DNA of 21,333 bases, from IMG/VR virus record IMGVR_UViG_3300027985_000993, positions 1 to 21,333 of that record. One strand, written 5' to 3'. The notes under the pieces were generated by a model, which saw only the letters and a list, made by a program, of their open reading frames with translations, did no database searches and was not told where the DNA came from. Made by a program: the position numbers and the translations under genes. Origin of the DNA: a virus. This document shows, piece after piece, positions 5,820 through 21,272 of the stretch (positions are counted from its first letter, which is position 1; the number at the start of each line of letters is the position of its first letter).

Positions 5820-6028
5820 AGATATGTTCTAAACACTATAAGCAGCGCCGACCCAACAATCGAACCAGCTGTAATTAGACCCAATAGCTTTGTATGAATC
5901 CAGGCCTGTTTCTTTTCAACTTCGTCGAGTCGTTGCACAACGCCTTTGTTTTGCAGACTGCCGACTAAGCAATGCTTGATTTCATTTATATCACATTGTA
6001 TTTGCTGCAGTAGTTCATCATTATTCAT
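5816..6028 (-). CDS. XhlA-like small membrane protein, possible lysis accessory
   Basis: 70 residues: an N-terminal amphipathic or coiled-coil helix (about 1-45, with LDEVEKKQAWI) and one C-terminal membrane span (about 49-66, LGLITAGSIVGSALLIVF). This plan matches the haemolysin XhlA/holin-associated family, anchored in the inner membrane with the coil in the cytoplasm. It overlaps its neighbours on both sides as ATGA. A role in lysis beside the preceding membrane protein is likely but inferred from architecture and position. Confidence 0.6.
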   Translation of the reverse strand: MNNDELLQQIQCDINEIKHCLVGSLQNKGVVQRLDEVEKKQAWIHTKLLGLITAGSIVGSALLIVFRTYL

Positions 6029-6457: not shown

Positions 6458-6465
6458 TATATTAC
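6458..6465 (-). promoter_or_regulatory. GTAATATA late motif, copy 1
   Basis: GTAATATA on the late strand, ending 4 bases before the ATG at 6453 (GCGTAATATAAAGTATG). Its TAA is also the stop codon of the upstream 286-residue gene. This copy lacks the AAGG found before most others, which weakens a pure ribosome-binding reading. Confidence 0.5.
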
Positions 6466-7322
6466 GCGCTAGTGTTTATCAAAACTCGTTTACTTACTAG
6501 AGTAAAAAATCCTCTACCTGTACACATTGCAGCAGTAGAATCTGGTTTGACCAATATTTCCAAATCTGTTTTTTCGTCAAAAATAGGAGGCGTTTTATAT
6601 ACACGACCTACGTCTGTGCTACCGTTTACAGATGTGGAATAGACACCAGAATCACGCCAACCACTATAATTATTATACGAATCTGCATTATACGTTCTAG
6701 CACGAGCAAAAAACTGTGCTGATTTATTAAGCCCGCTCAGATTGAAAGCTAGTTCGTCTAGTACTAAAATATAACCTGCTGGAACAGTATAGCGCGGTCC
6801 ATTGTATGCCCCTTGGCCGACTGGAATCTTACCGAGGATTAAAGAACTAGTCTGTGGAACCCCGTCGGTATATGAAGTTTCGTCTTCACTTGCTAAATAT
6901 ATGTCTCCTACTGCTCCACCATTGGAGCCGCACCGATAATCTTTAGCCCAAAATAAACGCAAGTATGTGTTTACACTTGTCACAGGAGTTTGACCGTTTA
7001 ATTCCACACGTTCTTCGACTAGAGCATAATTTGCATCAACTCCATAAAAATAAATTTCTTGTGTTCCTGTTCCTTCTGCGGTGTCATTTGCGCTCGATGA
7101 CGAAATCTTAAGATGCTTAGCTTCCGTCAAATATGGATACATTTCTTGTGCTGCTGTTGTAGTTGGTCCGATACTTTGCACATTCGTACTGACAGAGGAA
7201 TGGTAACCAAAAATTGCGTGAAATCTGTGCCAATGTAATTGATTTAATCCGACAGCATAATCAAAGCCATATGGAATGCGTTTGTCTGGAAGCAACTTGT
7301 CAAAATCCCAATGCCCGCTCAT
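6462..7322 (-). CDS. Virion-type beta-structured protein, probable tail or capsid decoration
   Basis: 286 residues, rich in Thr, Ser, Asn and Tyr and likely all beta. Segments such as SSSSANDTAEGTG, YFYGVDANYALVEE, VELNGQTPV, YTVPAGYILVLDEL and EKTDLEILV resemble a virion protein type common in environmental phages, in which a glycine/threonine-rich core is followed by a tYTVPAG strand. I recall the pattern but cannot name a family with certainty. Unlike most late genes it has a textbook Shine-Dalgarno (AAGGAGG, 6 bases before ATG). Its ATG overlaps the stop of the 47-residue gene. Surface attachment or receptor contact is a guess. Confidence 0.65.
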   Translation of the reverse strand: MSGHWDFDKLLPDKRIPYGFDYAVGLNQLHWHRFHAIFGYHSSVSTNVQSIGPTTTAAQEMYPYLTEAKHLKISSSSANDTAEGTGTQEIYFYGVDANYALVEERVELNGQTPVTSVNTYLRLFWAKDYRCGSNGGAVGDIYLASEDETSYTDGVPQTSSLILGKIPVGQGAYNGPRYTVPAGYILVLDELAFNLSGLNKSAQFFARARTYNADSYNNYSGWRDSGVYSTSVNGSTDVGRVYKTPPIFDEKTDLEILVKPDSTAAMCTGRGFFTLVSKRVLINTSA

Positions 7323-7462
7323 TTCGTTCCTCCTTGCTGTGCTTTAATTGCTTGCATTTGCTTGATGGCATTTTTAAGCGCGTTTGGACCTGTATAGCAT
7401 TTGCCGGTCGCTCCCCACTTGAAGCCCGGCTTTCCTTGATCTTGACATGGTTGAATCGGCAT
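7319..7462 (-). CDS. Small 47-residue phage protein (MPxxPC...GKPGxKWG...GKCYTG type)
   Basis: A short frame that fills the gap between the fibre and the 286-residue gene: ATG 2 bases after the fibre stop, TGA overlapping the next ATG. It starts MPIQPCQDQGKPGFKWG, continues GKCYTGPNA, then a basic helix (LKNAIKQMQAIKAQQ). This layout of Cys, GKPG, KWG, GKCY and a basic C-terminal helix is one I recognise from small hypothetical proteins in many unrelated tailed phages, function unknown. The two Cys and aromatic residues could form a small knuckle. The packing on both sides supports a real gene. Confidence 0.75.
   Translation of the reverse strand: MPIQPCQDQGKPGFKWGATGKCYTGPNALKNAIKQMQAIKAQQGGTK
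7329..7335 (-). promoter_or_regulatory. Strong Shine-Dalgarno AAGGAGG
   Basis: AAGGAGG is 6 bases before the ATG at 7322 and is encoded inside the last codons of the 47-residue gene. It is the only full-length Shine-Dalgarno I see in the late block, and shows that the host ribosome uses this pairing. Confidence 0.7.
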
Positions 7463-7464
7463 GA

Positions 7465-9333
7465 TTATGTTGTAATGTTGTTTGTTATAACTTTATTAGT
7501 TCCAGTCCCGTTGTCTGAAAGCTGTCCTGATGTATTTGCGCGAATTATGTTATTTGTAATGATATATCGATCAGACGCACCAGTGGCTAGATAAATTCCA
7601 TATTGTCCATTTACTGTAAACTCTCCAGCGGCGCCCATTACATTTTGGACCAATTGAAAGTCTGTAACTCCTCCTGCCACGTAAACGCCGTTTTGTGAAT
7701 TACCAGAACATGTTGAATTGTTTAATGAGAAAAACTTTGGACCAGAATCATTGATGAAGAGCCCGTGTGTGTTGTTCGACAGAGTACAGTTGCTCATTTC
7801 TACGCGATTGACAGTACCGCCAGATGTTACTAAGGCAATTCCACTGTTTGTATTAGTACACGACCAAATGTTAGATAATTTAACTAAATCGACGTCACCA
7901 GAATTTCCAGCGATATAGACACCATATGCAGAGCCTTGGTCAAAATAGCAGTTTGAACACATGACCGCTTGAACAGTTTCTGATGCTGGAGCAATGATTT
8001 TTAGACCAGTTCCTGTGTATATCGTTGAAACGCGATCAATAACGATATCGCCAAGATTGTCAATACGAATGCCAGCGTCCATTTGTGCACCAGAAGATGC
8101 TGCTGTTATTAGAATATTGCAAATGTAGTAGTCAATCCCATTGCTTGTTGTGTCTATGCGTATGCCGCTACCACCAGCAACGCAATTTAAAATATTGACA
8201 TCAATTACTTTATTCCCTGTACCGCCTGCCCCTGTCATCAATACACCATTGAATGCTCCGTACATAGTAAGACTCTGCAGGGTTACTAAATTGACCCCGC
8301 TCAATTCGATGACAGAATCGGCCGTTTTTGTTGTCCCAGAATTAAATTGTAAATCTCTGACAAAGCAATTGCCACCAGTGATTTCCACAGTGTTACCGGT
8401 TGCGGAATAAAGCTTAATGATGGACTTTGTTCCAACTCCTTCTAAATTGACACCACTTACAGACAACGTCAACGCACTGGTCGTTTTATAAGTGCCCGCT
8501 GGAAAAAAGACTGTCCCTCCTGCAACATTAGCTGCAGTGATGGCGCTTTGAATCGCAGAAGTGTCATCCGTAGAATCATCTCCAACAGCACCATATGTTC
8601 TAACATTAAATGATGGGAACAACGCATCAACTTCCGTTGTAGAATAAACGCCTAAGTTTGTACGGGCTCCGCTGGCATCGCTTGCACCAGTACCTCCGTC
8701 GGCTACGGCCAAATCCGTAATTCCTGAAATGGCTCCGCCAGTAATAGAGACAGAATCTGCATCTTGGGTTGCAATAGTTCCCAAACCTAGATTTGTGCGT
8801 GCCGTTGCTACATTATCGAGATCATTTAAATTATTGGCGGCCTCTATATATCTACCATCAGATTCCACTTTGGTATAATAATTACTAAGGCTACCTGTCG
8901 GGGTACCGCCTAGTGCCGTCTCTTTAACAGTTATTGAGCCAGCAGATAAGACCAATGTTGTAGTGGCTGTTGAGGCAATGACGCTCAACCAATAAAATCC
9001 ACCAGATAAAGTATTTTGTGTGCTAGAAATTGAAAGTGTGGCGTGTTGGTCAAGATCATTTTTCCATTGAGTCAATGTCAATGACGAATTTAAACTCGCA
9101 GTTGAAGCTAAAATTAAAGGATTTGTGTCGCCAGCAGCATTTCTGATTTCCACACTCAACGCCGTTATATTAGACGCATCCATCAAGGAATCACGATTAA
9201 AAATACCAATTTGAAATTCAACATCCGTCCCTTCGTAAATGACAGGCTGGGCTTGGGTTAATTTTTCTACGGGTGCCGTCGCATAATGTGCATCGCATTT
9301 TAGTCGAATAATGTGTTTGCTTACTTGTGTCAT
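7465..9333 (-). CDS. Tail fibre/spike with pectate-lyase-like beta-helix
   Basis: 622 residues. Residues 1-140 form a beta domain of the type that anchors fibres to the baseplate. A linker follows (about 151-235) with the fibre signature YYTKVESDGRY and two related repeats, NNLNDLDNVATARTNLGLG and GASDASGARTNLGVY. From about 243, FNVRTYGAVGDDSTDD begins a pectate-lyase-3-like right-handed beta-helix with GGTVFFPAGTY and many short Asn/Gly/Ser/Thr-rich coils to the C terminus (TNKVITNNITT). The fold is typical of host-recognition spikes and polysaccharide depolymerases. Catalytic residues cannot be assigned by eye, so enzymatic activity is only possible. GTAATATA lies 5 bases before the ATG. 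Base composition is less AT-rich than the early genes. Confidence 0.85.
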   Translation of the reverse strand: MTQVSKHIIRLKCDAHYATAPVEKLTQAQPVIYEGTDVEFQIGIFNRDSLMDASNITALSVEIRNAAGDTNPLILASTASLNSSLTLTQWKNDLDQHATLSISSTQNTLSGGFYWLSVIASTATTTLVLSAGSITVKETALGGTPTGSLSNYYTKVESDGRYIEAANNLNDLDNVATARTNLGLGTIATQDADSVSITGGAISGITDLAVADGGTGASDASGARTNLGVYSTTEVDALFPSFNVRTYGAVGDDSTDDTSAIQSAITAANVAGGTVFFPAGTYKTTSALTLSVSGVNLEGVGTKSIIKLYSATGNTVEITGGNCFVRDLQFNSGTTKTADSVIELSGVNLVTLQSLTMYGAFNGVLMTGAGGTGNKVIDVNILNCVAGGSGIRIDTTSNGIDYYICNILITAASSGAQMDAGIRIDNLGDIVIDRVSTIYTGTGLKIIAPASETVQAVMCSNCYFDQGSAYGVYIAGNSGDVDLVKLSNIWSCTNTNSGIALVTSGGTVNRVEMSNCTLSNNTHGLFINDSGPKFFSLNNSTCSGNSQNGVYVAGGVTDFQLVQNVMGAAGEFTVNGQYGIYLATGASDRYIITNNIIRANTSGQLSDNGTGTNKVITNNITT

Positions 9334-9338
9334 TTTTT

Positions 9339-9346
9339 TATATTAC
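9339..9346 (-). promoter_or_regulatory. GTAATATA late motif, copy 2
   Basis: AAAAGGTAATATAAAAAAATG: the motif ends 5 bases before the fibre ATG and lies wholly after the stop codon of the upstream 111-residue gene, so here it is in noncoding sequence. AAGG lies 12 bases before the ATG, the same spacing as at 12825 and 19643. Confidence 0.55.
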
Positions 9347-9349
9347 CTT

Positions 9350-9685
9350 TTAATAATTATAAAATTTAGTTGTGTGTTGTGCTAATGTTAAATCAAACTC
9401 GATTGTTGGAATACTATTTGAAAAATTGGTAATCCTGAAATCTACTAAATCAAATGGCGTGGCCGTTACTGTTGTACTTTCAAACGAACTAACACCAAAA
9501 GCCGCGCTAGTAGTAAAAGTATAAGCTATTTCATGCGTAACCAAACTAGTCCATGAACCACTATTGACGCGATATTCAACATCAAAGGTCAATGTCGCTT
9601 CTGACACATCTCCAACAACACAAGTTCCCGCAAGCGATAAAGTAAGATCGACGGTCGGATCAGATTTAAAAAAAATGTTACTCAT
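9350..9685 (-). CDS. Small beta-rich tail-tip protein, unidentified
   Basis: 111 residues, Thr/Ser/Val/Phe-rich alternating pattern (VDLTLSLAGTCVVGD, ATLTFDVEYRVNSGSW, STTVTATPFDLVDFRITN) predicting a beta-sandwich, ending KFYNY. No signal peptide or membrane span. It overlaps the J-like gene by 8 bases and precedes the fibre gene, so a connector between tail tip and fibre or a small tip decoration is inferred. Family not recognised. Confidence 0.65.
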   Translation of the reverse strand: MSNIFFKSDPTVDLTLSLAGTCVVGDVSEATLTFDVEYRVNSGSWTSLVTHEIAYTFTTSAAFGVSSFESTTVTATPFDLVDFRITNFSNSIPTIEFDLTLAQHTTKFYNY

Positions 9686-11222
9686 AATAGTATCCCTGAA
9701 ATGATGATAATGACGTAGTGACTAAATCGGTTTCTGATTCCCATGGGAGAATATCTATTGTGGCAGTAAATGGCCCAATGATATTTTGTTCATATGAAAT
9801 TTCTGGAGCACTTATTATTTCTTGTTCATCGTCAACAGACCAAGAATAAACGTTACTATCAATAGCTTGCAAACTAAGGGCTACTTGTAGATTTGGGTTA
9901 TCTACGTCTCCGCTTTGCAACGACCAATTGAGCACCTCAAACACCTTTTGATTCCATCCGTATTTATCTAAAGAAAGTGTAACATTATCACCAGGTCTAA
10001 TTTTTAGGCCCTTTAAATTCATTGTAAAAGTAACAATCTCTTGTCGCCGATTTCGTTCCAATACTATTTTTGCAATTCGTTGAGCAACCGCCGCATGTTG
10101 TGTGTATCGTAACTCCAAGTCTTTCCAAATAGTCTCATAATTATCTTCTGCAATATATGTCGTGTCTGATCGCTGAGGGTAATCTGAAGACTGATAATTG
10201 TTTTCTGGGTTTATGTAGGTTCCTTTTACGCTATTAAAACGATCTTTTCTGGATAACTTTGTTTGAATTTCCAATGGACCAATAATATCATCCTCAGCTA
10301 TGTGTAACAATGGAGTTGCATATGCGCCACCAGTTACGTAAAATTTTCCACCCGAATATCCTATTTTACCAGCAAAACTCGAAGCCATCTGTTCTAGTAT
10401 GTCGGCAGGCGTTTGGTCTGTGTCAAAAACGCCACTTATTGGATAACGTTCTATCGTTCCACCTGCTGACAAAGACACTGTTTCTTCTGCTAAATTTGCC
10501 AGCGATATAAAACTTGGGAGATCAATTTCATCAGTCGATGCACCTAGACCATAATCCGAGTTGGTTAAATAATCGTAAATCATCAACGCAGGATTAGTGG
10601 AATAATAGGTTGTTTCTGTTCTGAAATCGTATAATTTTTTACCTTTTACAACAGCAGAAATGTTCGGGATCCCTTCTGGAAACTTTGATTGGTCATATAA
10701 CAACTTTACAGTCAAATAACCTATTCCTCTCAATCGATGGTCGGTTGTCCACTTGTTAGCCGATTCTGCGACTAAATAACTATTTGCGGCCTGATCACTA
10801 GTGCCTAGAAATTTATCAACCCAAACATAGCCAGCATATGTGCCAGTGTCTTCTCTTCCACTGAGAGTCAATACATCATTGTTGATATAAATGTCATCTA
10901 TAGATTGCAACTCATGACCAGATAAAGCAATAACGAAATGTACATATTTGTTGTTCTCACCAGTGCTTTCCACGTAAACGATTGGACCAGAAACTTTATT
11001 TAGCCCATAAATGACACGGCGAGGCTGCACGCTCTCTCTTATCATTTGGGAAATACCACCTGGATCAGTAGATGCTGATGGGGCTTTCTTATTCGAGAAT
11101 AAACCGCTAGTTAAAAAAGAAAATGCCGCTGATACTATAGCGCCAATGAGCTTCCCTACAAATGCGCTTGCACCTGCGGAAGTCGCTATTGATGTTACTA
11201 TTGCTCCTACTACTGCGCCCAT
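9678..11222 (-). CDS. J-like tail-tip (central hub) protein
   Basis: 514 residues. The first 45 residues are hydrophobic, Gly/Ala-rich (AIVTSIATSAGASAFVGKLIGAIVSAAFSFL), usual for this class. The QPRRVIYGLNKVSGPIVYVES signature follows (about 66-86), then HELQSIDDIYIN, a hub region, and a fibronectin-like C-terminal part with IRPGDNVTLSLDKYGW (about 407-422). It forms the cone under the tail tube in lambda-J-type siphophages and carries receptor-binding parts. The protein is much shorter than lambda J, as in GTA-related and many environmental phages, which probably leaves host recognition to the separate fibre. It follows the NlpC-like gene closely. GTAATATA lies 34 bases before the start, inside that gene. 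Confidence 0.87.
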   Translation of the reverse strand: MGAVVGAIVTSIATSAGASAFVGKLIGAIVSAAFSFLTSGLFSNKKAPSASTDPGGISQMIRESVQPRRVIYGLNKVSGPIVYVESTGENNKYVHFVIALSGHELQSIDDIYINNDVLTLSGREDTGTYAGYVWVDKFLGTSDQAANSYLVAESANKWTTDHRLRGIGYLTVKLLYDQSKFPEGIPNISAVVKGKKLYDFRTETTYYSTNPALMIYDYLTNSDYGLGASTDEIDLPSFISLANLAEETVSLSAGGTIERYPISGVFDTDQTPADILEQMASSFAGKIGYSGGKFYVTGGAYATPLLHIAEDDIIGPLEIQTKLSRKDRFNSVKGTYINPENNYQSSDYPQRSDTTYIAEDNYETIWKDLELRYTQHAAVAQRIAKIVLERNRRQEIVTFTMNLKGLKIRPGDNVTLSLDKYGWNQKVFEVLNWSLQSGDVDNPNLQVALSLQAIDSNVYSWSVDDEQEIISAPEISYEQNIIGPFTATIDILPWESETDLVTTSLSSFQGYYYE

Positions 11223-11226
11223 AATG

Positions 11227-11661
11227 CTAAATTGTTGATAGAGTCACTGCTTTTTTTATATTACTTAGATGTACAAATTCAATTCCACCGCCTTTTTTTG
11301 GGTGGATACTAAACCTCCCATCACAGACACCAAAAGAAAACGTTGTTAATTTATCAGGAGAGTTAAACAACAACATGAGATCTCCGCGTTTTGCTTGCTT
11401 GGGATCAATCTCTTTTGCATTCAAATCAAACAAACGAAATGCCGATATGGCAAACTGCTTTAAATCTTTTCCTAAGGCGGATCTTAGCCACTTTAACGCC
11501 TGTAGAGGGGTTTTGTATTGTCCACGTAGTTTTGAAGCACTTTTTGTATCATAAAGAGCGTCTATAAGATCACACGCTAATAAAAGACAATCGTTCGTGC
11601 CCCATTCAAAAGGCTCATTACGTTTCTTATCAATTTCTGCATAAAATGCCTCAAAGTTCAT
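11227..11661 (-). CDS. NlpC/P60-like tail-assembly protein (DUF6950 type)
   Basis: About 144 residues. The start at 11661 (MNFEAFYAEID) is preferred because it overlaps the previous stop as ATGA; a start at 11679 would add six residues. The pattern FEWGTNDCLLLACDLID gives the Cys of an NlpC/P60-like fold. KLRGQY, KRGDLMLLF and SFGVCDGRFSIHPKKGGG follow, the last in the region of the catalytic His. These proteins sit between distal tail and tip genes (lambda K position) and act in tail assembly or local peptidoglycan opening. Activity is plausible (Cys present) but not proven. Confidence 0.78.
   Translation of the reverse strand: MNFEAFYAEIDKKRNEPFEWGTNDCLLLACDLIDALYDTKSASKLRGQYKTPLQALKWLRSALGKDLKQFAISAFRLFDLNAKEIDPKQAKRGDLMLLFNSPDKLTTFSFGVCDGRFSIHPKKGGGIEFVHLSNIKKAVTLSTI
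11257..11264 (-). promoter_or_regulatory. GTAATATA late motif, copy 3
   Basis: AAGTAATATAAAAAAAGC, 34 bases before the J-like ATG at 11222. It falls within the last codons of the NlpC-like gene (Ser-Asn-Ile-Lys-Lys). The distance is far too large for a ribosome site but suits a promoter leader. Confidence 0.45.
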
Positions 11662-12224
11662 CCTTGTGTCTTTCCCCATAAAATAGGCAACTCTTGAATA
11701 GAATTGACATATTCAAAACCTTTATCGCCAGCATAGCGAATTTTTTGTTCTTCATCTGTATAGCGTGAGATGCGCGGCGTCTCTAAAGCGATTAGACGAT
11801 TTTCAATGCTCATGTTTAAAACAATCGTATTGCCAGAATCTTGAATATTCAATGCATCCATCGGACCACTAAAAAGAACAACGGGTGAAGCAATTATGGA
11901 TTCATTTTCGTCTAAAAGCGCCATGGTGACAATTGCAAGACGCTCTTGATAATTTTCAGTCATTGCGTTTGTTATTAAAGAATCAGGGATTCCAGACAAC
12001 TGAACAGTTATACCAGTCGATTGTGTACCGTTAACTTCGCTAATGACATCAACACTAATTAGTGAACCCGCTCCAGCATACGTATGACCGCCGTAAGATA
12101 AATCCCCAACGCCTGACCACATATATAGTGTTCCGCTATCAAACTGAGCCTCAAATAATAAAATAGGCCTAACTACTTGCGCTCCTGACGCGCTTTCCAT
12201 GGATGCTGATAATCCCCTAGACAT
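11658..12224 (-). CDS. Distal/minor tail protein (tail-tip module, DUF2163-like position)
   Basis: 188 residues, mostly beta. LLFEAQFDSGTLYMWSGVGDLSYGGHTYAG and the middle part (FSGPMDALNIQDSGNTIVLNMS, then IENRLIALETPR) are typical of the minor tail protein encoded between the distal tail protein and the NlpC-like protein in GTA-type and many alphaproteobacterial siphophages (lambda L position). The C-terminal DKGFEYVNSIQELPILWG closes the domain. It starts 1 base after the previous gene and overlaps the next by 4, so all three are co-translated. Whether it binds an iron-sulfur cluster like lambda L cannot be judged; I see no Cys cluster. Confidence 0.75.
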   Translation of the reverse strand: MSRGLSASMESASGAQVVRPILLFEAQFDSGTLYMWSGVGDLSYGGHTYAGAGSLISVDVISEVNGTQSTGITVQLSGIPDSLITNAMTENYQERLAIVTMALLDENESIIASPVVLFSGPMDALNIQDSGNTIVLNMSIENRLIALETPRISRYTDEEQKIRYAGDKGFEYVNSIQELPILWGKTQG

Positions 12225-12225
12225 T

Positions 12226-12819
12226 TTAGAAACCTTCTATCGCTGTAAAATTTAATCCGAAATTACGCAACTCGTCTATTGAGAACGAGTTAGTGTTGTT
12301 TTTTAATCTAAACGTTGATTGCGGCGTGTCAGTCGTAATGGAAGAATTATTTGTAGACGCTTTCATGCGCGGCCAAATACTAATATCAGCATTACCAGAA
12401 GCATCGCTATCGACATCCGCCGTGACCATATAGATATAATCATCAAATTCAATAAAATCACCTTTTAATAATAAATTTTCTACATTCGTAGGCCACCCCT
12501 TGCTTGCGAGCGTCCTGCCACTTTGATTTGACCCATCGACAAGACCGCTATAGCGCTTTCTAGAGACGTTATCAATAATTGGTCCAATTTTAAAGGTGCC
12601 CTCGCGACCATTTAATTCCGCTAAAAACGCAACCCAAGCGCCGGCTTCTTCTTGATTCATAGGTGGTAAAGTTACTTTCACTTCCCAAAAGCTTCCAGGA
12701 TAAGCATAGACTTGTTGAGCACCTGTGAAAATAGAAGTACTCATGCCAACTATACTTCGCAACATAAACTCAATGCTTTTCGGCGAAGGTGAATCTGGTA
12801 TAGATAAAGGATAGCTCAT
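12226..12819 (-). CDS. Distal tail protein-like, first of the tail-tip module
   Basis: 197 residues. It opens YPLSIPDSPSPKSIEFMLRS and continues with YPGSFWEVKVTLPPM and EAGAWVAFLAELNGREGTFKIGP, a pattern I associate with the tail protein that directly follows the tape measure gene in alphaproteobacterial-type siphophages (GTA gp12/DUF2460-like position, or Dit). The remainder is beta-rich, with FIEFDDYIYMVTADVDSDASG and SISPR-like turns. It probably forms a ring at the tip end of the tail tube. GTAATATA lies 5 bases before the ATG and overlaps the tape measure stop. Confidence 0.72.
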   Translation of the reverse strand: MSYPLSIPDSPSPKSIEFMLRSIVGMSTSIFTGAQQVYAYPGSFWEVKVTLPPMNQEEAGAWVAFLAELNGREGTFKIGPIIDNVSRKRYSGLVDGSNQSGRTLASKGWPTNVENLLLKGDFIEFDDYIYMVTADVDSDASGNADISIWPRMKASTNNSSITTDTPQSTFRLKNNTNSFSIDELRNFGLNFTAIEGF

Positions 12820-12824
12820 TTTCT

Positions 12825-12832
12825 TATATTAC
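12825..12832 (-). promoter_or_regulatory. GTAATATA late motif, copy 4
   Basis: AAAAGGTAATATAAGAAAATG: 5 bases from motif to ATG, AAGG 12 bases before ATG. The TAA inside the motif is the stop codon of the tape measure gene, a different frame use from copies 3 and 6. Confidence 0.55.
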
Positions 12833-15060
12833 CTTTTATTGCCTCTTATTGTTTGACCAATCTGAGTATTGCGAGAACACTCGTTTGCCACCTGTTGCAC
12901 TGATTTATTAATAATTTGTTCACCCCATACTTTTAAATCTCTCTCTGTGACACCTTCGGAACGATTATTAATGGTTTGATTGATTACCGTGCCACCAGAC
13001 CCAGAAGATTGTTTTGCTGGATCTACACGAGACACACTGATGAATTCCCCAGGGTCAGCCATAAAACCTATTGGGACGCCGTCTATACCAGCAGCTGGAC
13101 CTTCTACTTGAAAGGAACCACCAGACGCAAATCCAAAGAAATCACCAATGCCTCCGAACATATCGCCAATGCCGCCAAATAGGTCAAATCCACCGTCTAA
13201 AATGCCTTCTCCGCTCATGATGTCTCCAGTAATTCCACCATCAAACAAACTACCGAATATATCGCCGATTCCAGACCCGAAAATGCTTTTTGTCAATGAG
13301 TCGATCTGAGAAAATATTCCAGAAATTGAGCCTCCTCCAAATCCACCAAGATCAATTCCAAATATCTGACTTATGCTATTCAGCAGATTATCAAAAACGG
13401 CGGTGACATCATTTCCCATTTTTTTAAAATTCTTGGTAATGCTAGTCGATGTTTTTTTAGCAACCTCATCCGTACTTTCTAATCCTCCATTGAGCCTTTT
13501 CAAATCTTTTTCTGTCGCGGTCTCTGAAAATTGTGTTATGACTTCGGCTGTTTCGGGTAATTCTGTTTTTGCGGTGTTAGCCAAGTCTTTTAAAGAAATA
13601 GTAGTTTCTTCGATCGCCACTGACGTTTCTTTAAATTGTTTTGTAGCTTTTTTTAAGTTATCTTCGGGAAATGCTTTTTCAAACGCTTTTTGTGCCGAAA
13701 CGCGATCTTGTAACATTTTATTCAGCATTTGTGATTGTTCTTCCGTATAAACGATTCCTTGATCTGGACGCATTACATCCCAACCACCTGCAAATTTTGT
13801 TAGAGCGTCGGTTGCAGAATGAATAGAACTGGTAATTGTTGCAAAACCCTCATTAATAGAATTAATAATATCGATAATTTTGTTAAAACTACTGACTAAA
13901 AAATCTAAACTTTGAATCAACGTTGGAATGGCTACGTCTGCGACATGGTTTAGGTTGCCTGAAAATTTTTCAATTATATCAATGACATTTCTAACATAAG
14001 GTAAAACAGCATCACCAATTTTTATACCAAGATCGACGAATGAGTTTTTTAACAAAACGATCGAATTGGCCGTTGTAGCAGAGCGATTTTCAAATTCCCG
14101 CTGGACGCTTCCTAAATAATTTTGTTCCTCTGCGACTAAACTAAGTGCCTTTTTATATTCATCCAAGCTACCTACTAATAATGCGACATCATCTTGATAT
14201 TCGAGCCCGAACATATCAAATAAAATGCCAGCTTGTTTTTTGGGGTCAATGGTTGCTAATTTGTCTAAAAATGATATTAAAGCGCCTTGAGCATCTTTCC
14301 TAACCATATCTGCAAACTTAGTAGCGGATATTCCCATGCTTTCCATGGCGTTTATAAACTTTGGTGTTTGCTTATCGGCAGTCCCTAATTTTGCCAACAT
14401 TGCATTTATGGCCGTGCCAGCTTTTTGTGGAGTTTTACCTAATGCTATAAAAGCATCAGACAATGCGGCCGCTTGCTGAGCGGTTAACCCAAATTGCTTA
14501 CTAGTACCGCCAATCATATTTAACGACTCAACAATTTCTCGAGCTTTTGCTGCGGTATTGTCGGATAAGTGGTTTATGGCATCTCCAAGTTTTTCCATCT
14601 CCGTAATTGGGATTTGGAACACGTTTGACAATTTTGCAATTGCGTCTCCAGCTTCTGCCGCAACCATATCATACGCTATTGAAATTTTAGAGACAGTTTC
14701 TGTAAAAGCTTTTAAGTCTTTTGCGGCGATGCCTAATTGTCCACCAGCTGCCGCAATTCCAGCCAGTCCTTCAGCTGTAACTGGAATCGTTTTAGACAAG
14801 TTGCGCAGCTCATCGCCAAGTTCTTTTAGTCCATTGGGTGTTTCGAAATTTACAACTTTACGGACGTCCGCCATTGCGCTTTCAAAATCAATAGCTGCCT
14901 TGATTGCACCAGCAAATAAGGCCGCACCAGCAGCCGCACCAATTTTTGCAAAAGATGCAAAAGCTGATTTGACCTTTTGACCAAGGCCGCTCAAGGTTGA
15001 CGTGAATTTTGAAGCGTCTGCAGAAACTCCAATTGACAAGTTTGCAATTTTTTTAGCCAT
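12829..15060 (-). CDS. Tape measure protein
   Basis: 743 residues. It sets tail length and is packed inside the tube; at the usual 0.15 nm per residue this suggests a tail near 110 nm. Residues 1-330 carry the phage minor tail/tape measure domain (SIGVSADASKFTSTLSGL, FESAMADVRKVV, then GLAGIAAAGGQLGIAAKDL and ALGKTPQKAGTAINAMLAKLG). Helical stretches follow, then a Gly/Phe/Ile-rich region (about 570-650, many GGIGDMFGG-like units) that may be membrane-active, and the C-terminal FASGGSFQVEGPAAG and DPGEFISVSR signature. It overlaps the gp10-like gene by 8 bases. Confidence 0.93.
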   Translation of the reverse strand: MAKKIANLSIGVSADASKFTSTLSGLGQKVKSAFASFAKIGAAAGAALFAGAIKAAIDFESAMADVRKVVNFETPNGLKELGDELRNLSKTIPVTAEGLAGIAAAGGQLGIAAKDLKAFTETVSKISIAYDMVAAEAGDAIAKLSNVFQIPITEMEKLGDAINHLSDNTAAKAREIVESLNMIGGTSKQFGLTAQQAAALSDAFIALGKTPQKAGTAINAMLAKLGTADKQTPKFINAMESMGISATKFADMVRKDAQGALISFLDKLATIDPKKQAGILFDMFGLEYQDDVALLVGSLDEYKKALSLVAEEQNYLGSVQREFENRSATTANSIVLLKNSFVDLGIKIGDAVLPYVRNVIDIIEKFSGNLNHVADVAIPTLIQSLDFLVSSFNKIIDIINSINEGFATITSSIHSATDALTKFAGGWDVMRPDQGIVYTEEQSQMLNKMLQDRVSAQKAFEKAFPEDNLKKATKQFKETSVAIEETTISLKDLANTAKTELPETAEVITQFSETATEKDLKRLNGGLESTDEVAKKTSTSITKNFKKMGNDVTAVFDNLLNSISQIFGIDLGGFGGGSISGIFSQIDSLTKSIFGSGIGDIFGSLFDGGITGDIMSGEGILDGGFDLFGGIGDMFGGIGDFFGFASGGSFQVEGPAAGIDGVPIGFMADPGEFISVSRVDPAKQSSGSGGTVINQTINNRSEGVTERDLKVWGEQIINKSVQQVANECSRNTQIGQTIRGNKR

Positions 15061-15469: not shown

Positions 15470-15768
15470 CTTCCGAAAAGTTTCTGTAAAAGTAATTTTT
15501 GTTCTTTTGATGATCTTGCTTTATCATCTTTTGCCATAAAATCTTTAACTTTAAACGCTCTAGTTCCCTTGCGACGATTACAATTTGCGATCGTAGCACA
15601 AACCAAGGCATATCTAGATTCATCTATTCTCAATTTTTGTTTGTAGTGCTTAATTAGTTTTCGATATTGCTTGGGGGTCAACTTTGACCCCTCGCCATAT
15701 TTAAAACCGAAATAAATAGAACAAACCGCATTGATTTCATCTAAATCTATGTTAAGCGCTAAAGGCAT
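15466..15768 (-). CDS. Second tail-assembly-chaperone-like protein
   Basis: 100 residues, helical and basic in its second half (KQYRKLIKHYKQKLRIDESRYALV, RRKGTRAFKVKDFMAKD). It begins MPLALNIDLDEINAVCSIYFG inside the 3' end of the preceding chaperone gene, overlapping by 17 bases in the +1 frame. Position and small size fit the second member of a gpG/gpGT-type pair before the tape measure gene. The ATG and the ATGA overlap downstream allow simple coupled initiation. Function is inferred from context. Confidence 0.62.
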   Translation of the reverse strand: MPLALNIDLDEINAVCSIYFGFKYGEGSKLTPKQYRKLIKHYKQKLRIDESRYALVCATIANCNRRKGTRAFKVKDFMAKDDKARSSKEQKLLLQKLFGR

Positions 15769-16030
15769 CGTTCAAAACCTCGCTGATGTCAGTAACAAGA
15801 CTCATTAAATCTTTTAATTTTAGAGAATTTAGAAGATTTTTTATTTCGTCCTCTTTGTGATTATCAGACAACAAGCCTCTCAACAATGCGTTAATTTTTT
15901 TCGGAGATATATCTTTAAATATATCAGCCTCAAAAACGTTTAAACCAAACTTATCGTCCATCAATACAATTGCATCAAAGGAACAATTAAGTTTATAATT
16001 TTTTCCATTAATGTTTACTTCTTTCATCAT
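15752..16030 (-). CDS. Tail-assembly chaperone, GTA gp10/Phage_TAC type
   Basis: 92 residues. KEVNINGKNYKLNCSFDAIVLMDDKFG is the beta-hairpin-then-helix start of the GTA-type tail-assembly chaperones, followed by a short helical domain (ALLRGLLSDNHKEDEIKNLL, DISEVLNDAF). It coats the tape measure protein before tube assembly. The start overlaps the major tail protein stop as ATGATG, so translation is linked to the most abundant tail product. A second Met at codon 2 could be the true start. Confidence 0.75.
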   Translation of the reverse strand: MMKEVNINGKNYKLNCSFDAIVLMDDKFGLNVFEADIFKDISPKKINALLRGLLSDNHKEDEIKNLLNSLKLKDLMSLVTDISEVLNDAFSA

Positions 16031-16440
16031 GCATCATAAGTTGGTTTACCAGAAATCTTGATAGACAAGTCAGCCATGACTTTGTCATCCATGTCGACAG
16101 ATATGTCAAACGATGTTACAAATCCGCCAAATGTATAAAGCGTCGAGCCGTCGTCAGAAAAAGTAATCTTAAAGTTCGTAGCTGCGCTAGCCTTATCAAA
16201 CAACTTACTTTGTAAAAACTTGTGTGCTGTGTCGTCTGGATCCAATTGCACACTTAGTGATAATTCTCCAGGGTCAGCAAGACCTTGTTGAAATACACGA
16301 GTATTATTTTCCGAGGAAAGATTAGTTACGTCAATGACGGATGCGCTTGCACTAATACCAATGCTTTCGATTCCGCCAACGGCGACCCAATCTGTGTCAT
16401 AATAATGTAAGGTAGAATTATGTGAGTGGAATGCAGTCAT
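16027..16440 (-). CDS. Major tail (tube) protein
   Basis: 137 residues, beta-rich: HNSTLHYYDTDWVAVGGIESIGISASAS, VIDVTNLSSENNTRVFQQGLADPGELSLSV, an ANFKITFSDDGSTLYTFGGFV core and IKISGKPTYDA at the end. The G(L)xDxGxLSLSVQxDP pattern is typical of siphophage major tail proteins. It polymerises into the tube around the tape measure. It has both a Shine-Dalgarno (AAAGGAT, 16446-16452, 5 bases before ATG) and a separate GTAATATA 29 bases upstream, in a 39-base leader, suggesting its own promoter as expected for an abundant protein. Confidence 0.88.
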   Translation of the reverse strand: MTAFHSHNSTLHYYDTDWVAVGGIESIGISASASVIDVTNLSSENNTRVFQQGLADPGELSLSVQLDPDDTAHKFLQSKLFDKASAATNFKITFSDDGSTLYTFGGFVTSFDISVDMDDKVMADLSIKISGKPTYDA

Positions 16441-16469
16441 GTTTTATCCTTTGATTTGTTTAGTTTCTA

Positions 16470-16477
16470 TATATTAC
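16470..16477 (-). promoter_or_regulatory. GTAATATA late motif, copy 5
   Basis: AGAGGTAATATATAGAAAC, in the noncoding leader right after the stop of the tail terminator gene and 29 bases before the major tail protein ATG. A separate Shine-Dalgarno (AAAGGAT) stands next to the ATG, so the motif is not needed for ribosome binding here. This is the best argument for a promoter. Confidence 0.58.
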
Positions 16478-16479
16478 CT

Positions 16480-16866
16480 CTATTCTGAGTAAAAAAGTTC
16501 TAAGTCAATATACTTTCGAAAAAAACGTGTGTCTTTTTCATAATCTGAAAAATCATTATAAATCGCGGCTTGTGACACCTTTATTCCAAATTCCGTAAAT
16601 GTTGACCCACACAACACGTCTTTTATAATTTGTATAATTTGTGCAGCGCTCAAATAGCTATTAGCAAAAGCATTAATTTGAAATCGTGCAGATCGTACAC
16701 CAGATCGCCCGTTCAAATTTCTAGGTATGTCTGAATTTATAATCTGATAAGTGACAAATGGCAATGTAGTATTTTCTGGTGCAATTAATGGAAAAATACG
16801 AGAACTCACTACTGAGGAAAGAGATGCTGTTGTTGAAAGTTTCGAAAATAAACAGGCTTCAATCAT
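16480..16866 (-). CDS. Tail terminator protein (DUF3168-like)
   Basis: About 128 residues. The ATG at 16866 is preferred over a GTG at 16878; it overlaps the stop of the preceding gene by 8 bases. Segments such as LSSVVSSRIFPLIAPENTTLPFVTYQ, ARFQINAFANSYLSAAQ and IIQIIKDVL are typical of DUF3168/gpU-type proteins that cap the finished tail tube at the head side. It stands between the joining protein and the major tail protein, as expected. Confidence 0.78.
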   Translation of the reverse strand: MIEACLFSKLSTTASLSSVVSSRIFPLIAPENTTLPFVTYQIINSDIPRNLNGRSGVRSARFQINAFANSYLSAAQIIQIIKDVLCGSTFTEFGIKVSQAAIYNDFSDYEKDTRFFRKYIDLELFYSE

Positions 16867-17188
16867 TGTCAACTCCACGTAAAATAATATGTCTTTTATT
16901 CTGTCTATAAAAATTTCTAACCCCTACTATATTATAATCTAAATCATCTAAATTGATCAAATCGAACTTACTTATAGAAAAATCAGATCGTGTTTGTAAA
17001 ATACGTAATTCTGAATTATTAAATCCCGCATCAGTAACAAATTTTTCAGTCTCTTCTCGTGGCAAAGAATCAATAAATAATTCAAGTGCATAAACATACG
17101 AGCTTGAAAAAGTAAATAAGGATTCCCCAACGCTATTTGTTGACGCATAAGATCTTCTCTTCAGTGTGACTTTTCGATCGTGAAACAT
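16859..17188 (-). CDS. Head-tail joining protein (HK97 gp7/SPP1 gp16-like)
   Basis: 109 residues, beta-rich: HDRKVTLKRRSYASTNSVGESLFTF at the start, then an ELFIDSLPREETEKFV stretch, ILQTRSDFSISKFDLINLDDLDYNIVG (the domain's typical 'define the value, then formula' strands) and a C-terminal strand RHIILRGVDND. It forms the stopper ring under the connector. Its ATG shares a base with the stop of the gp6-like gene (TAATG). Confidence 0.78.
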   Translation of the reverse strand: MFHDRKVTLKRRSYASTNSVGESLFTFSSSYVYALELFIDSLPREETEKFVTDAGFNNSELRILQTRSDFSISKFDLINLDDLDYNIVGVRNFYRQNKRHIILRGVDND

Positions 17189-17811
17189 TATTCTTCAAAT
17201 TCGTATGGATAATTTAATACAAAAGGATTTAAAAGGTTTTTTGCCGCCGTAAGTGTGTTGCTGTGGGCGGATTCCGGCATTCTACTTTCAAACATATCTG
17301 ATACTAATAATAAAATTGCTAATTTAATTGCTGAATTTATGGTCGTTGTGCCGAAGCCTGCTGTATATGTCAGTATATACGGAAATTTTCTAGATGATAA
17401 ATCGGAACTATCTGAAAATGAACTCAATGCGTAAAGTCGCGCCACTGGCTCGGAATTATCGACAACTAATGCAGAGGTGCTCAGCGTTTGTTCGGTTTCT
17501 GTTGAATCATAATATTTCAAAGAAGTCAATGAAGCTTGTCCGCCATATAAATAAATTGGAAAGCTTAATGTGTCTAAATTTGCAGTAATTGTACGGTTGT
17601 AAAATGGTCGCCTACAATAACTTTCGGCATAATCTGTCGCAGCATTAATACACGTCTCAACAAATGTCTGATCATCATCAGAATTTAATCTAAGATAAGC
17701 TTTTGCCTCATCATACGTAACAACGGCGATGCTAGTTGATGCGATTGAGAATCGTTGATTGTTTGCTATTTTCATTTTGTTTGTCGGCAGGGCTATTGCT
17801 AGCCCCACCAT
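17188..17811 (-). CDS. Head-tail connector, HK97 gp6-like
   Basis: 207 residues from 17811, or 195 from the in-frame ATG at 17775 (MKIANNQRF). The gap to the capsid gene favours the first start; neither has a Shine-Dalgarno, and a small hairpin lies between them. VVTYDEAKAYLRLNSDDD and ETCINAATDYAESYCRRPF are the signature of gp6/gp15-like adaptors that build a ring on the portal. A beta part and the helical C-terminal half with IKLAILLLVSDMFESR complete the fold. Confidence 0.85.
   Translation of the reverse strand: MVGLAIALPTNKMKIANNQRFSIASTSIAVVTYDEAKAYLRLNSDDDQTFVETCINAATDYAESYCRRPFYNRTITANLDTLSFPIYLYGGQASLTSLKYYDSTETEQTLSTSALVVDNSEPVARLYALSSFSDSSDLSSRKFPYILTYTAGFGTTTINSAIKLAILLLVSDMFESRMPESAHSNTLTAAKNLLNPFVLNYPYEFEE
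17790..17805 (-). other. Hairpin with GCAA tetraloop after the capsid gene
   Basis: On the late mRNA strand, GGGCTA and TAGCCC form a perfect 6-bp stem with a GCAA loop (GNRA type), 30 bases past the capsid stop. No T-run follows, so it is not a full terminator. It may stabilise the capsid mRNA 3' end, attenuate downstream expression, or affect the start choice of the next gene. Confidence 0.4.
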
Positions 17812-17834
17812 TACTTGTTCTTATTTGTTAGTTA

Positions 17835-19016
17835 CTAGGAGGATGGACAAACACCACGAGAAATTGCTTCTGCTAAAACTGGTTCGAAGCCGAATCTCTC
17901 AGTTGTATAGAGACCGATTTGATCGGTTCCTGCGTACAACTCCGACAAAATTTTGAACTCTAGAGCCCTGCGCTCAGCCAAGATCAAGAAACTTGGATCC
18001 ATGAAGGAGATTGCAATGGCATCGGCTCCCATCTCTGGATGCGAGGCAGAAGTAACAACAGGACGACCTAAAAGCATGTCTGGTTGTCCGGCTTGTAGGC
18101 CAGGTTGCCAGAGATATTGGTTGTTGCCGTCTTTGAGTAACCGGATGAGCTTCAGGGTACTGTCATTCATAGACCATATTGCATTTTTCCGATAGTGTTG
18201 ATTTAGACCGTGGAAAATTGCTACAATGTTGTCTGATGAAAGCGTTCCAGTGCCGCTAAGCTCTGTGGTGCCAATTGCAACTGAGCTGATGGAGGTTGGA
18301 ACGGCAAATCCAGTTTGTTGCGAAGAGCCCGTACCTGCTACAATTAATGCTTCTTCTTTAGCGGCCATTCCGCGTGCTACTTCGGCAATCAAGAACTCTT
18401 CAATGTTGAACTCTGAATCTTCGAGAAGCTCATTAGAAACAAGCAAGTTATGACCTAGCTTATAAATCTCAATTGATGCTTGATTAATTGTGGGTTGTGT
18501 TAAGCTATCTCCAACTGTTCCTGCTTCTGCAACAATACCAGCCGTTGTTTGTGTTCCTTGTACAGGTACTCTAAATGGATTGCTTGCAGTGTTAACAACG
18601 CGTACGTATTTTCTAAAATCGTTGAGGTCGCGGCGTTTTTCAATCACAGCTTTTAGCATATCACCAAGTACCGCATTTCCACCAGCTGTGGCGGTTCCTG
18701 CTGACATAGCCGCTAGCGAACGCACTTCACCACGAAAAATTGCGAGTGCCGCAGAACGAAGTTCATTACGCACTTCATTGTCGCTCTTATTTGTTGCACG
18801 AGCCGCAGAATCAACCCTCTTGTTTACAACCTCAGCAGCAAGATCATTATAGCCACTAATTTTGTTACGGAATTGTGCCAAATCGTCGATCTCTTTGATG
18901 CGAGCTTCTAATTGATCGAGTTTCGATTTTTCTTCGCTGTTAAGACCGCGTTTTTCGCTCTCGGCCCGCTCTACCACCGAACGCATTTCATGTATTAAAT
19001 TAAGTCTCTCTTCCAT
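17835..19016 (-). CDS. Major capsid protein, HK97 fold
   Basis: 393 residues. An N-terminal coiled-coil delta domain (about 1-55, with EMRSVVERAESEKRGLNSEE and KLDQLEARIKEIDDL) serves as internal scaffold, and is usually removed by the prohead protease somewhere around residue 90-110 (exact site unseen). The shell domain follows: RVVNTASNPFRVPVQ, AEAGTVGDSLTQPTINQ, LLVSNELLEDSEFNIEEFL, IVAGTGSSQQTGF, IWSMNDSTLKLIRLLKD, and GLYTTERFGFEPVLAEA near the end. It follows the protease as in HK97. The leader has no Shine-Dalgarno and only a divergent late motif. Confidence 0.95.
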   Translation of the reverse strand: MEERLNLIHEMRSVVERAESEKRGLNSEEKSKLDQLEARIKEIDDLAQFRNKISGYNDLAAEVVNKRVDSAARATNKSDNEVRNELRSAALAIFRGEVRSLAAMSAGTATAGGNAVLGDMLKAVIEKRRDLNDFRKYVRVVNTASNPFRVPVQGTQTTAGIVAEAGTVGDSLTQPTINQASIEIYKLGHNLLVSNELLEDSEFNIEEFLIAEVARGMAAKEEALIVAGTGSSQQTGFAVPTSISSVAIGTTELSGTGTLSSDNIVAIFHGLNQHYRKNAIWSMNDSTLKLIRLLKDGNNQYLWQPGLQAGQPDMLLGRPVVTSASHPEMGADAIAISFMDPSFLILAERRALEFKILSELYAGTDQIGLYTTERFGFEPVLAEAISRGVCPSS

Positions 19017-19026
19017 TTTATTTAGT

Positions 19027-19042
19027 CTTTCTATTTATTTTG
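19027..19042 (-). promoter_or_regulatory. Degenerate late motif before the capsid gene
   Basis: The leader reads AAAATAAATAGAAAG on the late strand. It lacks GTAATATA but shares ATAGAAAG with the portal leader and has AATAAATA, one base from the T4 late element TATAAATA. It overlaps the protease stop codon and ends 10 bases before the capsid ATG. Weak evidence alone. Confidence 0.3.
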
Positions 19043-19637
19043 TTAAGTCTTTGTCATCGGACAAATTCAAGATATTTAGCTTGGCTTTATATAGATTTAA
19101 GCTGTCTAATTCTCTTTGCTCAAAGTCTTCTTTTGCGCGCTCTTCTTTTGCTTTTAGATCTTCTAATTTTCTTACGGCAACCGATGTATCAGAATAAGCA
19201 GGAATGCTAACAATCGAAATTTCAATCAGATCAACAGCATTCAATTTGCGCAAAATCGTACCGTCGGCTCTGTGTTCAAACTCGTCCTCCAATACGACAA
19301 ACCCAAAACTGCATTGGTCGACAATACCTTTTGATACCAATTCTCTAATATCGCGCCCAAGCGTCGTGTCAGGAATATCCAATTCAAAATAAAGTCCTCT
19401 TTCATCCGTAAACAATTTCAAGGAGCCGTTTTTCGTGCGTCCCAACACTTTTCCGCTATTATGATCTACAAAAGCCCTAATGTCTTTTTTGTCGAGATCT
19501 CTAAATGCTCCAGGAACAATAACTTCAGTAAATCCGCCGAGGTCTTCCGATTCACTGTTAAATAATGCGGCATATCCTTTTAGTTTGCGATCTTCATTTA
19601 AAAAATCTTCGCAAAGCAATCTGATTTCTTTTTTCAT
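19035..19637 (-). CDS. HK97-type prohead protease
   Basis: 200 residues, family U35. GYAALFNSESEDLGGFTEVI opens the fold; H59 in VDHNSGKVLGR and S110 in DQCSFGF are the catalytic pair, with an acidic partner probably in the DLIEISIVSIPAY strand. The C-terminal 45 residues (KAKEERAKEDFEQRELDSL) are a charged helix that may be trimmed on maturation. It cleaves the capsid delta domain. Its ATG overlaps the portal stop as ATGA, and GTAATATA lies 5 bases upstream. Confidence 0.93.
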   Translation of the reverse strand: MKKEIRLLCEDFLNEDRKLKGYAALFNSESEDLGGFTEVIVPGAFRDLDKKDIRAFVDHNSGKVLGRTKNGSLKLFTDERGLYFELDIPDTTLGRDIRELVSKGIVDQCSFGFVVLEDEFEHRADGTILRKLNAVDLIEISIVSIPAYSDTSVAVRKLEDLKAKEERAKEDFEQRELDSLNLYKAKLNILNLSDDKDLTK

Positions 19638-21244
19638 TTCTCTATATTACCTTCCAGCTTTGTTAAAATTAAATTTTTTCTATCGTTTTCAAAATAATGT
19701 TTGATTTTTATAGCATCAAAATCATTTTCTGTCTTACATGCTTGTAAAATCCCAGACATAAAGCGCTTACTTAATTCAATTGCTTCTGGATTAATGTCCT
19801 TCAATACTTCTAAGGTGTTTTCAATTTGTCTATTGATTCCTTGCTCGAAGATTTGCATGCGTTTGTTTAAATCTTCTTGATCTTGTGCTTTTGATAAGAT
19901 GTTTGCTATCGCCACATTTTCTTTTTTTTGTTGAATAGTGAATAACTTATCTAAAATTTGTGATCGCATATTCGGTTGATCTTGATTGTCTTTAATGGAC
20001 ACGTTTTGATTTCCTTGAGCGCCTTTTACTTGATCTTCAGCAACGGTCTGCGTAATCTCGTTTATATCCATTCCGAGTGGTGCCATGTTGAGCGGTTGCA
20101 ATAAACCGTCCCCATTATCTACGGGCTCTAGGCCTTCCAAACGGCGAATCTCATTGATTGTCATAAAACGCTGCATTGCGACGTTATAACTATTATAGCG
20201 CGCCTCCATATCTCCACGCAATAATCCATCGATATTGAACTTAAAAGATTGGGTTTTTGGTAACAAGGAAGACGTTAACGCCTTTTCAATGCGTGACAAC
20301 CATGGGCGCAATGTAAATTTAACAAAATGTTGTGACAACTCAGAAATGCTCTTGTTGCTGGTCGTGTCGTCCAGTAAACTATATGGGACACCAAATAATT
20401 TAGCAATCTCTTTATCTTGAAATTCGCGTGATTCTAAAAATTGAGCATCGCTGTTGCTAATCGTTACACGCTCGAATTCCATGCCTTCTTCTAAGACAGC
20501 AATTCCTGTTCTCTTGTTGGCACCCATATAATTAGCAGACCACGAGTTTTTCAAAGATTTCAATGCCTCTTCTCCAAGATGGGATGGGTGCTTCAAAATT
20601 ACAACAGGGCTTCCATCGGTGTCAAAATAACGTTTGGCGTATTGTTGAGCAGATGCGCTTATCTCTAAAGAAGATTTAGCGAGTTCTATATTATTTAAAC
20701 CCCAAAGTCCATCGTGCGAAATATTTTTTATGTGTAAAACTTCCGATTTAGGTAATTCAACAACGCCGTTGTCGCTTTGTACAATGTATGTAATGATCAA
20801 GCCAGCATCCGTTTCTTTAAATTTCATCGAAACTCTGTCTGGATACAAAGGTATAAGTTCGACAACTTCTCCGAGGCGATTTTTTATAATTTGCGCAAAA
20901 AAATTACCACGAAGTAACAAATGTGTCATTATAAGTTCCTTAAATTCATAAGGCGTCAAATAATTATTCGGAGCATTCTCTAATACATATAAAGCGGAAC
21001 TGCTATTAATGCGCTTTCCTTCTTTATTAAATAAATACAAAGATAAATCAGCAACTCCGCCAGCTATTAGGCGGACGCATGAGTTTACAGCCATAATGCG
21101 AAGGGCGTTGTCACTATTGACAGAAGGTGTTTGACTATAACTACTAAAAAATTTAGAAACAGCTCCACTATCTTTGCTTTTATAACCACCCGAGTAATTT
21201 GCGCCCACAAAACGCTCTTCTTTTTTATTTTTTCTTTTACTCAT
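19634..21244 (-). CDS. Portal protein, HK97 family
   Basis: 536 residues. It forms the dodecameric ring at the head vertex. IMAVNSCVRLIAGGVADLSLYLF, NAPNNYLTPYEFKELIMTHL and LLRGNFFAQII, the DGLWGLNNIELAKSSL loop, and AKLFGVPYSLLDD with RPWLSRIEKAL are standard for the family. Beyond about residue 390 it has an extra Gln/Asn-rich linker and helical tail (QKKENVAIANILSKAQDQEDL to KDINPEAIELSKRF), longer than in many HK97 portals. ATG has no strong Shine-Dalgarno; GTAATATA lies 20 bases upstream. Confidence 0.94.
   Translation of the reverse strand: MSKRKNKKEERFVGANYSGGYKSKDSGAVSKFFSSYSQTPSVNSDNALRIMAVNSCVRLIAGGVADLSLYLFNKEGKRINSSSALYVLENAPNNYLTPYEFKELIMTHLLLRGNFFAQIIKNRLGEVVELIPLYPDRVSMKFKETDAGLIITYIVQSDNGVVELPKSEVLHIKNISHDGLWGLNNIELAKSSLEISASAQQYAKRYFDTDGSPVVILKHPSHLGEEALKSLKNSWSANYMGANKRTGIAVLEEGMEFERVTISNSDAQFLESREFQDKEIAKLFGVPYSLLDDTTSNKSISELSQHFVKFTLRPWLSRIEKALTSSLLPKTQSFKFNIDGLLRGDMEARYNSYNVAMQRFMTINEIRRLEGLEPVDNGDGLLQPLNMAPLGMDINEITQTVAEDQVKGAQGNQNVSIKDNQDQPNMRSQILDKLFTIQQKKENVAIANILSKAQDQEDLNKRMQIFEQGINRQIENTLEVLKDINPEAIELSKRFMSGILQACKTENDFDAIKIKHYFENDRKNLILTKLEGNIEK
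19643..19650 (-). promoter_or_regulatory. GTAATATA late motif, copy 6
   Basis: GGAAGGTAATATAGAGAAATG: 5 bases from motif to the protease ATG, with AAGG 12 bases before ATG. It lies inside the last codons of the portal gene, read as Gly-Asn-Ile, so it is under coding constraint yet matches the noncoding copies exactly. Confidence 0.52.
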
Positions 21245-21264
21245 CTTTATAAGCCAGCTTTCTA

Positions 21265-21272
21265 TATATTAC
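21265..21272 (-). promoter_or_regulatory. GTAATATA late motif, copy 7
   Basis: GAAGGTAATATATAGAAAGC, 20 bases before the portal ATG and just after the TGA of the upstream gene if that frame is right. TATAGAAA follows, as in copy 5. Confidence 0.52.

Follow-up and report, generated by a model that had tools for sequence, protein, structure and literature searches.

The virus record IMGVR_UViG_3300027985_000993 (21,333 bases, 38.5% GC; hereafter the window, meaning the whole stretch of DNA analysed) derives from a small, previously undescribed marine-type bacteriophage and raises the question of how its late genes, which lie on the - strand, are switched on. The octamer GTAATATA is present in the window in seven exact copies, all 7/7 on the late strand and each a short distance upstream of a late start codon. 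We conclude that these seven sites are very probably late promoters, and we consider it likely that they are read by a 133-residue phage sigma factor encoded by the same DNA.

An octamer confined to the late strand and to late gene starts

The + strand of the whole record carries no copy of GTAATATA, and the motif read backward, used as a control pattern, has no match in the record. In dinucleotide shuffles (n=100) the octamer occurred on average 0.99 times, both strands together, and 0/100 shuffles reached seven copies. Placement near late starts is a stronger signal than copy number: all seven octamers fall in the stretches of 40 nucleotides (nt) that precede the 21 late starts and together cover 5.3% of the late region (binomial P=1.2e-9), and in a ranking of 8-mers by placement the overlapping shifts of the octamer come next, the best unrelated 8-mer reaching P=0.016. 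The gaps from octamer to start codon, for the copies at 6458, 9339, 11257, 12825, 16470, 19643 and 21265, are 4, 5, 34, 5, 29, 5 and 20 nt; an earlier note on this DNA had given the same gaps, coordinates and strand, and had likewise seen no copy on the + strand. Among the approximately 310 loci compared, the window ranks first for one-strand octamer excess, and the next-ranked contigs are short, with 2-4 copies each that lie mostly within genes. An origin by chance or base composition, to which an AT-rich octamer in a sequence of this GC content might lend itself, is already contradicted by the shuffles and by the placement P value, which is small even after choice among all 8-mers, and is scarcely credible.

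The coding contexts of the copies differ. Two are coding (Gly-Asn-Ile in the portal gene and Ser-Asn-Ile in the NlpC-like gene), two contain stop codons (those of the tape-measure gene and of gene 6462-7322) and three are noncoding, including the copies before the fibre and major tail genes, so that protein conservation is ruled out as their cause; the contexts cited earlier for the portal, tape-measure, fibre and major tail copies are borne out. The distribution over late genes is all-or-none, with the octamer at 7 of the 21 late genes and the exact octamer at 0/14 of the others, which together have a single copy with one mismatch within 60 nt, 49 nt away. The late cluster is thereby split into units for the portal, head, tail tube to tape measure, tail tip, J, fibre and lysis (Table 1), and the octamers stand at module boundaries, as had been claimed for most of them.

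Table 1. Positions of the putative late promoter elements and of other features of the window
Feature	Position	Strand	Remarks
Putative late promoter element 1 (AAGGTAATATA)	21265..21272	-	20 nt before portal gene (21244..19634); exact match
Putative late promoter element 2	19643..19650	-	5 nt before protease gene (19637..19035); heads protease-capsid-connector genes; predicted +1 is the A of ATG (leaderless)
Putative late promoter element 3	16470..16477	-	29 nt before major tail protein gene (16440..16027); heads tail tube to tape measure
Putative late promoter element 4	12825..12832	-	Overlaps tape-measure stop codon; 5 nt before distal tail protein gene (12819..12226); predicted leaderless
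Putative late promoter element 5 (AAGTAATATA)	11257..11264	-	Within NlpC-like gene; 34 nt before J-like gene (11222..9678)
Putative late promoter element 6	9339..9346	-	5 nt before fibre gene (9333..7465); predicted leaderless
Putative late promoter element 7 (GCGTAATATA)	6458..6465	-	4 nt before holin-candidate gene (6453..6025); heads lysis/HNH unit
Candidate late sigma factor, 133 aa	5048..5449	+	Last gene of the + strand early module
Region-2 part of sigma (core RNA polymerase and -10 binding)	5117..5314	+	Pfam match
C-terminal hexapeptide QIYFRF of sigma	5429..5446	+	Candidate sliding-clamp-binding motif
Family-B-like phage DNA polymerase (phrog_1252)	891..2768	+	Ends QLILDF-COOH (2748-2765), candidate clamp-binding motif
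Candidate early promoter TTGACT-16-TATAAC, sigma-70-like	2770..2797	+	Precedes phosphoesterase-to-sigma gene run; read directly from upstream sequence
211-aa protein ending QHFKLF	3798..4433	+	No family (Pfam, PHROG); in the operon of sigma; weak gp33-like partner candidate

Consensus and predicted start site

In the seven aligned sites conservation extends from 2 bases before the octamer to 6 after it, giving the consensus AGGTAATATAnARAAA (AG, GTAATATA and nARAAA). Five copies extend to AGGTAATATA, the longer form that the earlier note had ascribed to five; the sixth reads AAGTAATATA and the seventh (6458) GCGTAATATA. The conserved block described there is right as to its octamer core and too short in extent, since conservation continues downstream into nARAAA. 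This A-rich downstream part is present also where the octamer lies 20, 29 or 34 bases from ATG and is therefore not merely the usual context of a start codon. Column conservation was examined from 45 bases before to 20 bases after the octamer, and no conserved block was found near -35 across the seven aligned sites, in agreement with the previous observation of no constant -35 element; scattered single T or A columns near one bit are expected among approximately 70 columns of seven AT-rich sequences.

The T4 late element TATAAATA lies at -13 to -6 (PMC1524935). When the octamer is set at these positions the predicted start becomes the sixth base after it and the conservation spans -15 to +1. 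This sixth base is A at 6/7 sites, including the three long-leader sites. It coincides with the first base of the ATG at 9333, 12819 and 19637, and at 6453 the ATG begins one base before it. Given that the sites are promoters, the spacing makes a leaderless start at the three former late genes fairly probable, and perhaps the mRNA of the gene starting at 6453 would be a fourth. For the major tail gene a leader of approximately 24 bases is predicted, with an AAAGGA of its own at Shine-Dalgarno distance.

The same spacings bear on whether the motif might instead serve translation, with AAGG as a Shine-Dalgarno sequence and TAATATA as an A/U-rich spacer or enhancer. Three copies do keep 12 bases between AAGG and ATG, but the recognisable Shine-Dalgarno sites of the phage lie 5-9 bases before ATG, four copies stand at other distances, AAGG is absent in two, and the AAAGGA of the major tail gene lies downstream of the motif, which together make a translation element very unlikely. 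We regard as highly improbable that the octamers are RNA-processing or endonuclease sites that cut a long late transcript into modules: their position at module junctions on one strand only would suit such a role, yet a long primary transcript and an unidentified nuclease would be required, and the conservation pattern fits a promoter with a purine start.

A candidate region-2-only sigma factor encoded opposite the late genes

The gene that closes the early module converges on the late cluster and encodes a protein of 133 residues, of which residues 24-89 match Pfam Sigma70_r2 at 26.4 bits (cut-off 24). No region 4 was found in this protein, Sigma70_r2 being the only match up to E=10. PHROG assigns the same stretch to sigma factor (E=3e-5), and the top match among solved structures (PDB) is RpoS region 2 (E=0.006). 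Since T4 gp55, a protein of 185 residues, recognises an 8-bp promoter by its region-2 domain alone (PMC2988020, PMC7892883), a region-2-only sigma suits a -10-only promoter. None of 43 phage records that share the tail module (J approximately 40% identical) has a Sigma70_r2 match, and the loci compared from tail-module-sharing phages show no octamer excess. Sigma and motif are found in the same genome and fit one another, and on these grounds, together with the contrast to the tail-sharing phages, their pairing seems likely. The earlier note, in which the sigma gene went unnoticed, had read the copies as -10-only late promoters, and that reading is now strengthened by the strand exclusivity, the all-or-none pattern at boundaries, the frame-independent conservation, the lack of a -35 element and the presence of a region-2-only sigma.

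The sites might alternatively be read by the host housekeeping holoenzyme as variant extended -10 promoters, possibly with an upstream-bound phage activator. In favour of this, TAATAT agrees with TATAAT at 4/6 bases and a G stands directly before the octamer (-14) in 5/7 copies; however, there is neither a -35 element nor a conserved upstream activator block, the sites have A-15 G-14 in place of the TG of an extended -10, and restriction to late genes would require another switch. We consider recognition by the host holoenzyme decidedly unlikely.

The explanation that we favour as a whole, with some reserve, is one of single-element late promoters served by host core polymerase carrying the phage sigma. 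The host holoenzyme would transcribe the early (+ strand) genes, sigma included, and sigma would then switch the host core polymerase to the - strand, where each of the seven promoters would drive a unit of its own (portal, head, tail tube/tape measure, tail tip, J, fibre and lysis). Initiation at the sixth base after the octamer would give three, perhaps four, leaderless late mRNAs.

Comparison with known systems

The proposed system resembles T4, whose late element is read by gp55 (PMC2988020), in having a single 8-bp -10 element, no -35 element and a small region-2-only sigma. It differs in the element itself (here GTAATATA), in the length of the sigma (133 vs 185 residues), in belonging to an unrelated siphophage-type virus and in that the window is without an identified clamp or gp33. 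Leaders at the two T4 promoters checked are approximately 20 bases or more, whereas three of the elements described here abut the start codon. The sigma would work like gp55, although its sequence does not place it in the gp55 family.

The promoters of phiEco32 gp36 likewise consist of a single AT-rich element, tAATGTAtA, without a -35 element and with mapped starts 6-8 bp downstream; they head middle/late genes, and the phage sigma gene lies on the strand opposite the late genes (PMC8948821). In contrast, GTAATATA does not match this consensus, gp36 has 214 residues, and the matching phiEco32 elements lie approximately 33-38 bases before ATG, whereas here they are found also at 4-5. The T4 and phiEco32 control elements inspected lie roughly 25-40 bases before ATG. 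Salmonella phage 7-11 gp47 is also a phage sigma dedicated to late genes, with a GTAA core, but its promoter is bipartite, GTAAtg-(16)-aCTA (PMC8948821). A -10 element directly before the start codon, with a predicted leaderless mRNA, is shared with leaderless genes of Deinococcus-Thermus and mycobacteria (PMC12340547); those are cellular genes of unrelated bacteria, whereas the present ones are phage late genes, probably under a phage sigma.

A candidate clamp-binding motif at two C-termini

The C-termini of T4 gp55, gp33 and polymerase have an interchangeable clamp-binding motif (PMC2988020), and in the T4 record gp55 ends ...SLDFLYEAND and gp43 ends ...SLDFLFG. A C-terminal motif type shared by sigma and polymerase may be a further likeness to T4, SLDFLY (gp55) and SLDFLF (gp43) having their counterparts here in QIYFRF and QLILDF. 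Sigma and polymerase are the sole 2/29 window proteins that end in Q-hyd-x-hyd-x-hyd (hyd, hydrophobic), for which the internal frequency of the pattern gives P=8e-5, the pattern having been defined after both tails were seen. The bacterial hexameric clamp motif QLxLxL (PMC4564189) accommodates both hexapeptides when its consensus is relaxed. Most of 65 polymerase relatives are without such a tail; that of Xanthomonas phage Langgrundblatt1, where the replicative clamp gene directly adjoins the polymerase gene, ends QAVMFF and that of one viral contig (L160) ends QAVLFF. A distant jumbo-phage sigma (L006, IMGVR_UViG_3300027844_001828, 9782-10489; 235 residues, with region 2 and a weak region 4) ends QLALFE, and QLALF is a canonical pentamer beta-clamp-binding motif. 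Next to the L006 sigma gene lies one (8641-9735) whose product resembles a clamp-loader gamma/tau subunit.

As a further step, the QIYFRF of sigma may bind the sliding clamp that also serves the DNA polymerase (QLILDF), which would couple late transcription to replication as in T4. Such coupling through the C-terminus of sigma, by a motif that is itself a candidate, is a tentative proposal. More tentative by a shade is the combined picture of a siphophage unrelated to T4 with a replication-coupled late transcription of its own, consisting of a minimal sigma on a clamp, seven -10-only promoters and several leaderless structural mRNAs.

Relatives, and a possible factor outside the record

Relatives were sought in viral contigs by sigma, portal, polymerase and J alignments together with two motif patterns, in genome contigs by the tape measure, and among cultured phages by megablast and tblastn. 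Protein relatives point to a marine alphaproteobacterium as host, since the closest matches of J are in Roseobacter phages and those of the holin candidate in Roseobacter and Pelagibacter phages. The tape measure, however, most resembles that of Wolbachia WO and Holospora-type prophages, and the portal that of Firmicute phages. No close relative of this mosaic genome was found in the collections searched. In other sequences the motif patterns match once only or, for the most part, by coincidence within coding sequence.

Several points weigh against the favoured explanation. Firstly, the relatives obtained from viral contigs, genome contigs and cultured phages are all mosaic, and in none of them do motif and sigma occur together. 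Secondly, the sites are not uniform, the J-like copy (AAGTAATATA) being without one G and the lysis copy without AG. Thirdly, the AlphaFold models of sigma are of low confidence (pLDDT 41 and 52) and the fold search made with them gave no significant match; blastp of sigma against T4 gp55 was not significant (13.5 bits, E=1.7), nor was any significant alignment obtained with phiEco32 gp36. No clamp gene is found within the 21 kb window. Finally, the record is a fragment that ends just upstream of the portal gene. Most early genes and the greater part of the terminase lie beyond it, and another transcription factor or RNA polymerase could be encoded there.

The late promoters might accordingly be read by such an outside factor, for example another sigma or a phage RNA polymerase of the single-subunit kind, while the 133-residue protein has a different role. 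The incompleteness of the record leaves room for this, and conservation from -15 to +1 with an A-rich start region is equally expected of a phage-polymerase promoter. On the other hand, the AT-rich -10-like element and the region-2 sigma of one genome match each other, and to our knowledge single-subunit polymerases are not usual in the DNA-polymerase-B siphophage layout. We judge an outside factor unlikely and prefer recognition by the encoded sigma.

Further observations concern the tape measure and DNA other than the window. The N-terminal half of the tape-measure protein (12829-15060, -) shares 58-62% identity with proteins of Wolbachia WO, Holospora and other prophages, a level that no other gene of the window comes near. 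In Roseobacter phage CRP-6, gp14 (L030:3586-4101), annotated as hypothetical, has a weak Sigma70_r2 match (17 bits, below the cut-off) that suggests a hitherto unrecognised sigma-like protein in this cultured phage; the CRP-6 upstream regions contain no such motif. Five related viral contigs (L264, L279, L199, L280 and L303) carry GGTAAAAAGAGGTAATATAGAGAAAATG or nearly so, one copy each, with the octamer 27 nt before the GTG of an open reading frame (ORF) of 700-800 residues. At L246:7361-7410, AAAGAAAGGTAATATAAA occurs twice, 30 bp apart, before an ORF of 106 residues, and at L240:940-1020, in a contig of 59% GC, CATGACAATCATATAGGTAATATA occurs twice, 44 bp apart, as an AT-rich direct repeat.

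The early module

The candidate early promoter (Table 1) was not picked up by the sigma-70 consensus scan, which requires a T at the end of the second hexamer; that scan, with 77 sites vs 59 expected, was too noisy for use. The Q....F C-terminus of the 211-residue protein was considered as a sign of a gp33 and rejected, its score against the polymerase tail being no better than that of unrelated proteins. The DnaB-like helicase (83-916, +) ends in DEDESPF, acidic and Phe-terminated like SSB-type or T7-type interaction tails, and 5/8 + strand proteins have a C-terminal F. Rfam and tRNA scans of the window gave no matches.

Implications for phage late transcription

A leaderless start, as predicted at three structural genes, is unusual. 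The system offers a compact, testable candidate, comprising one 133-residue protein, seven 16-bp sites and a shared C-terminal motif. If the clamp-coupled arrangement is true, tethering of a sigma to the clamp may be a recurrent device beyond the T4 family, as the QLALF of the jumbo-phage sigma may also suggest.

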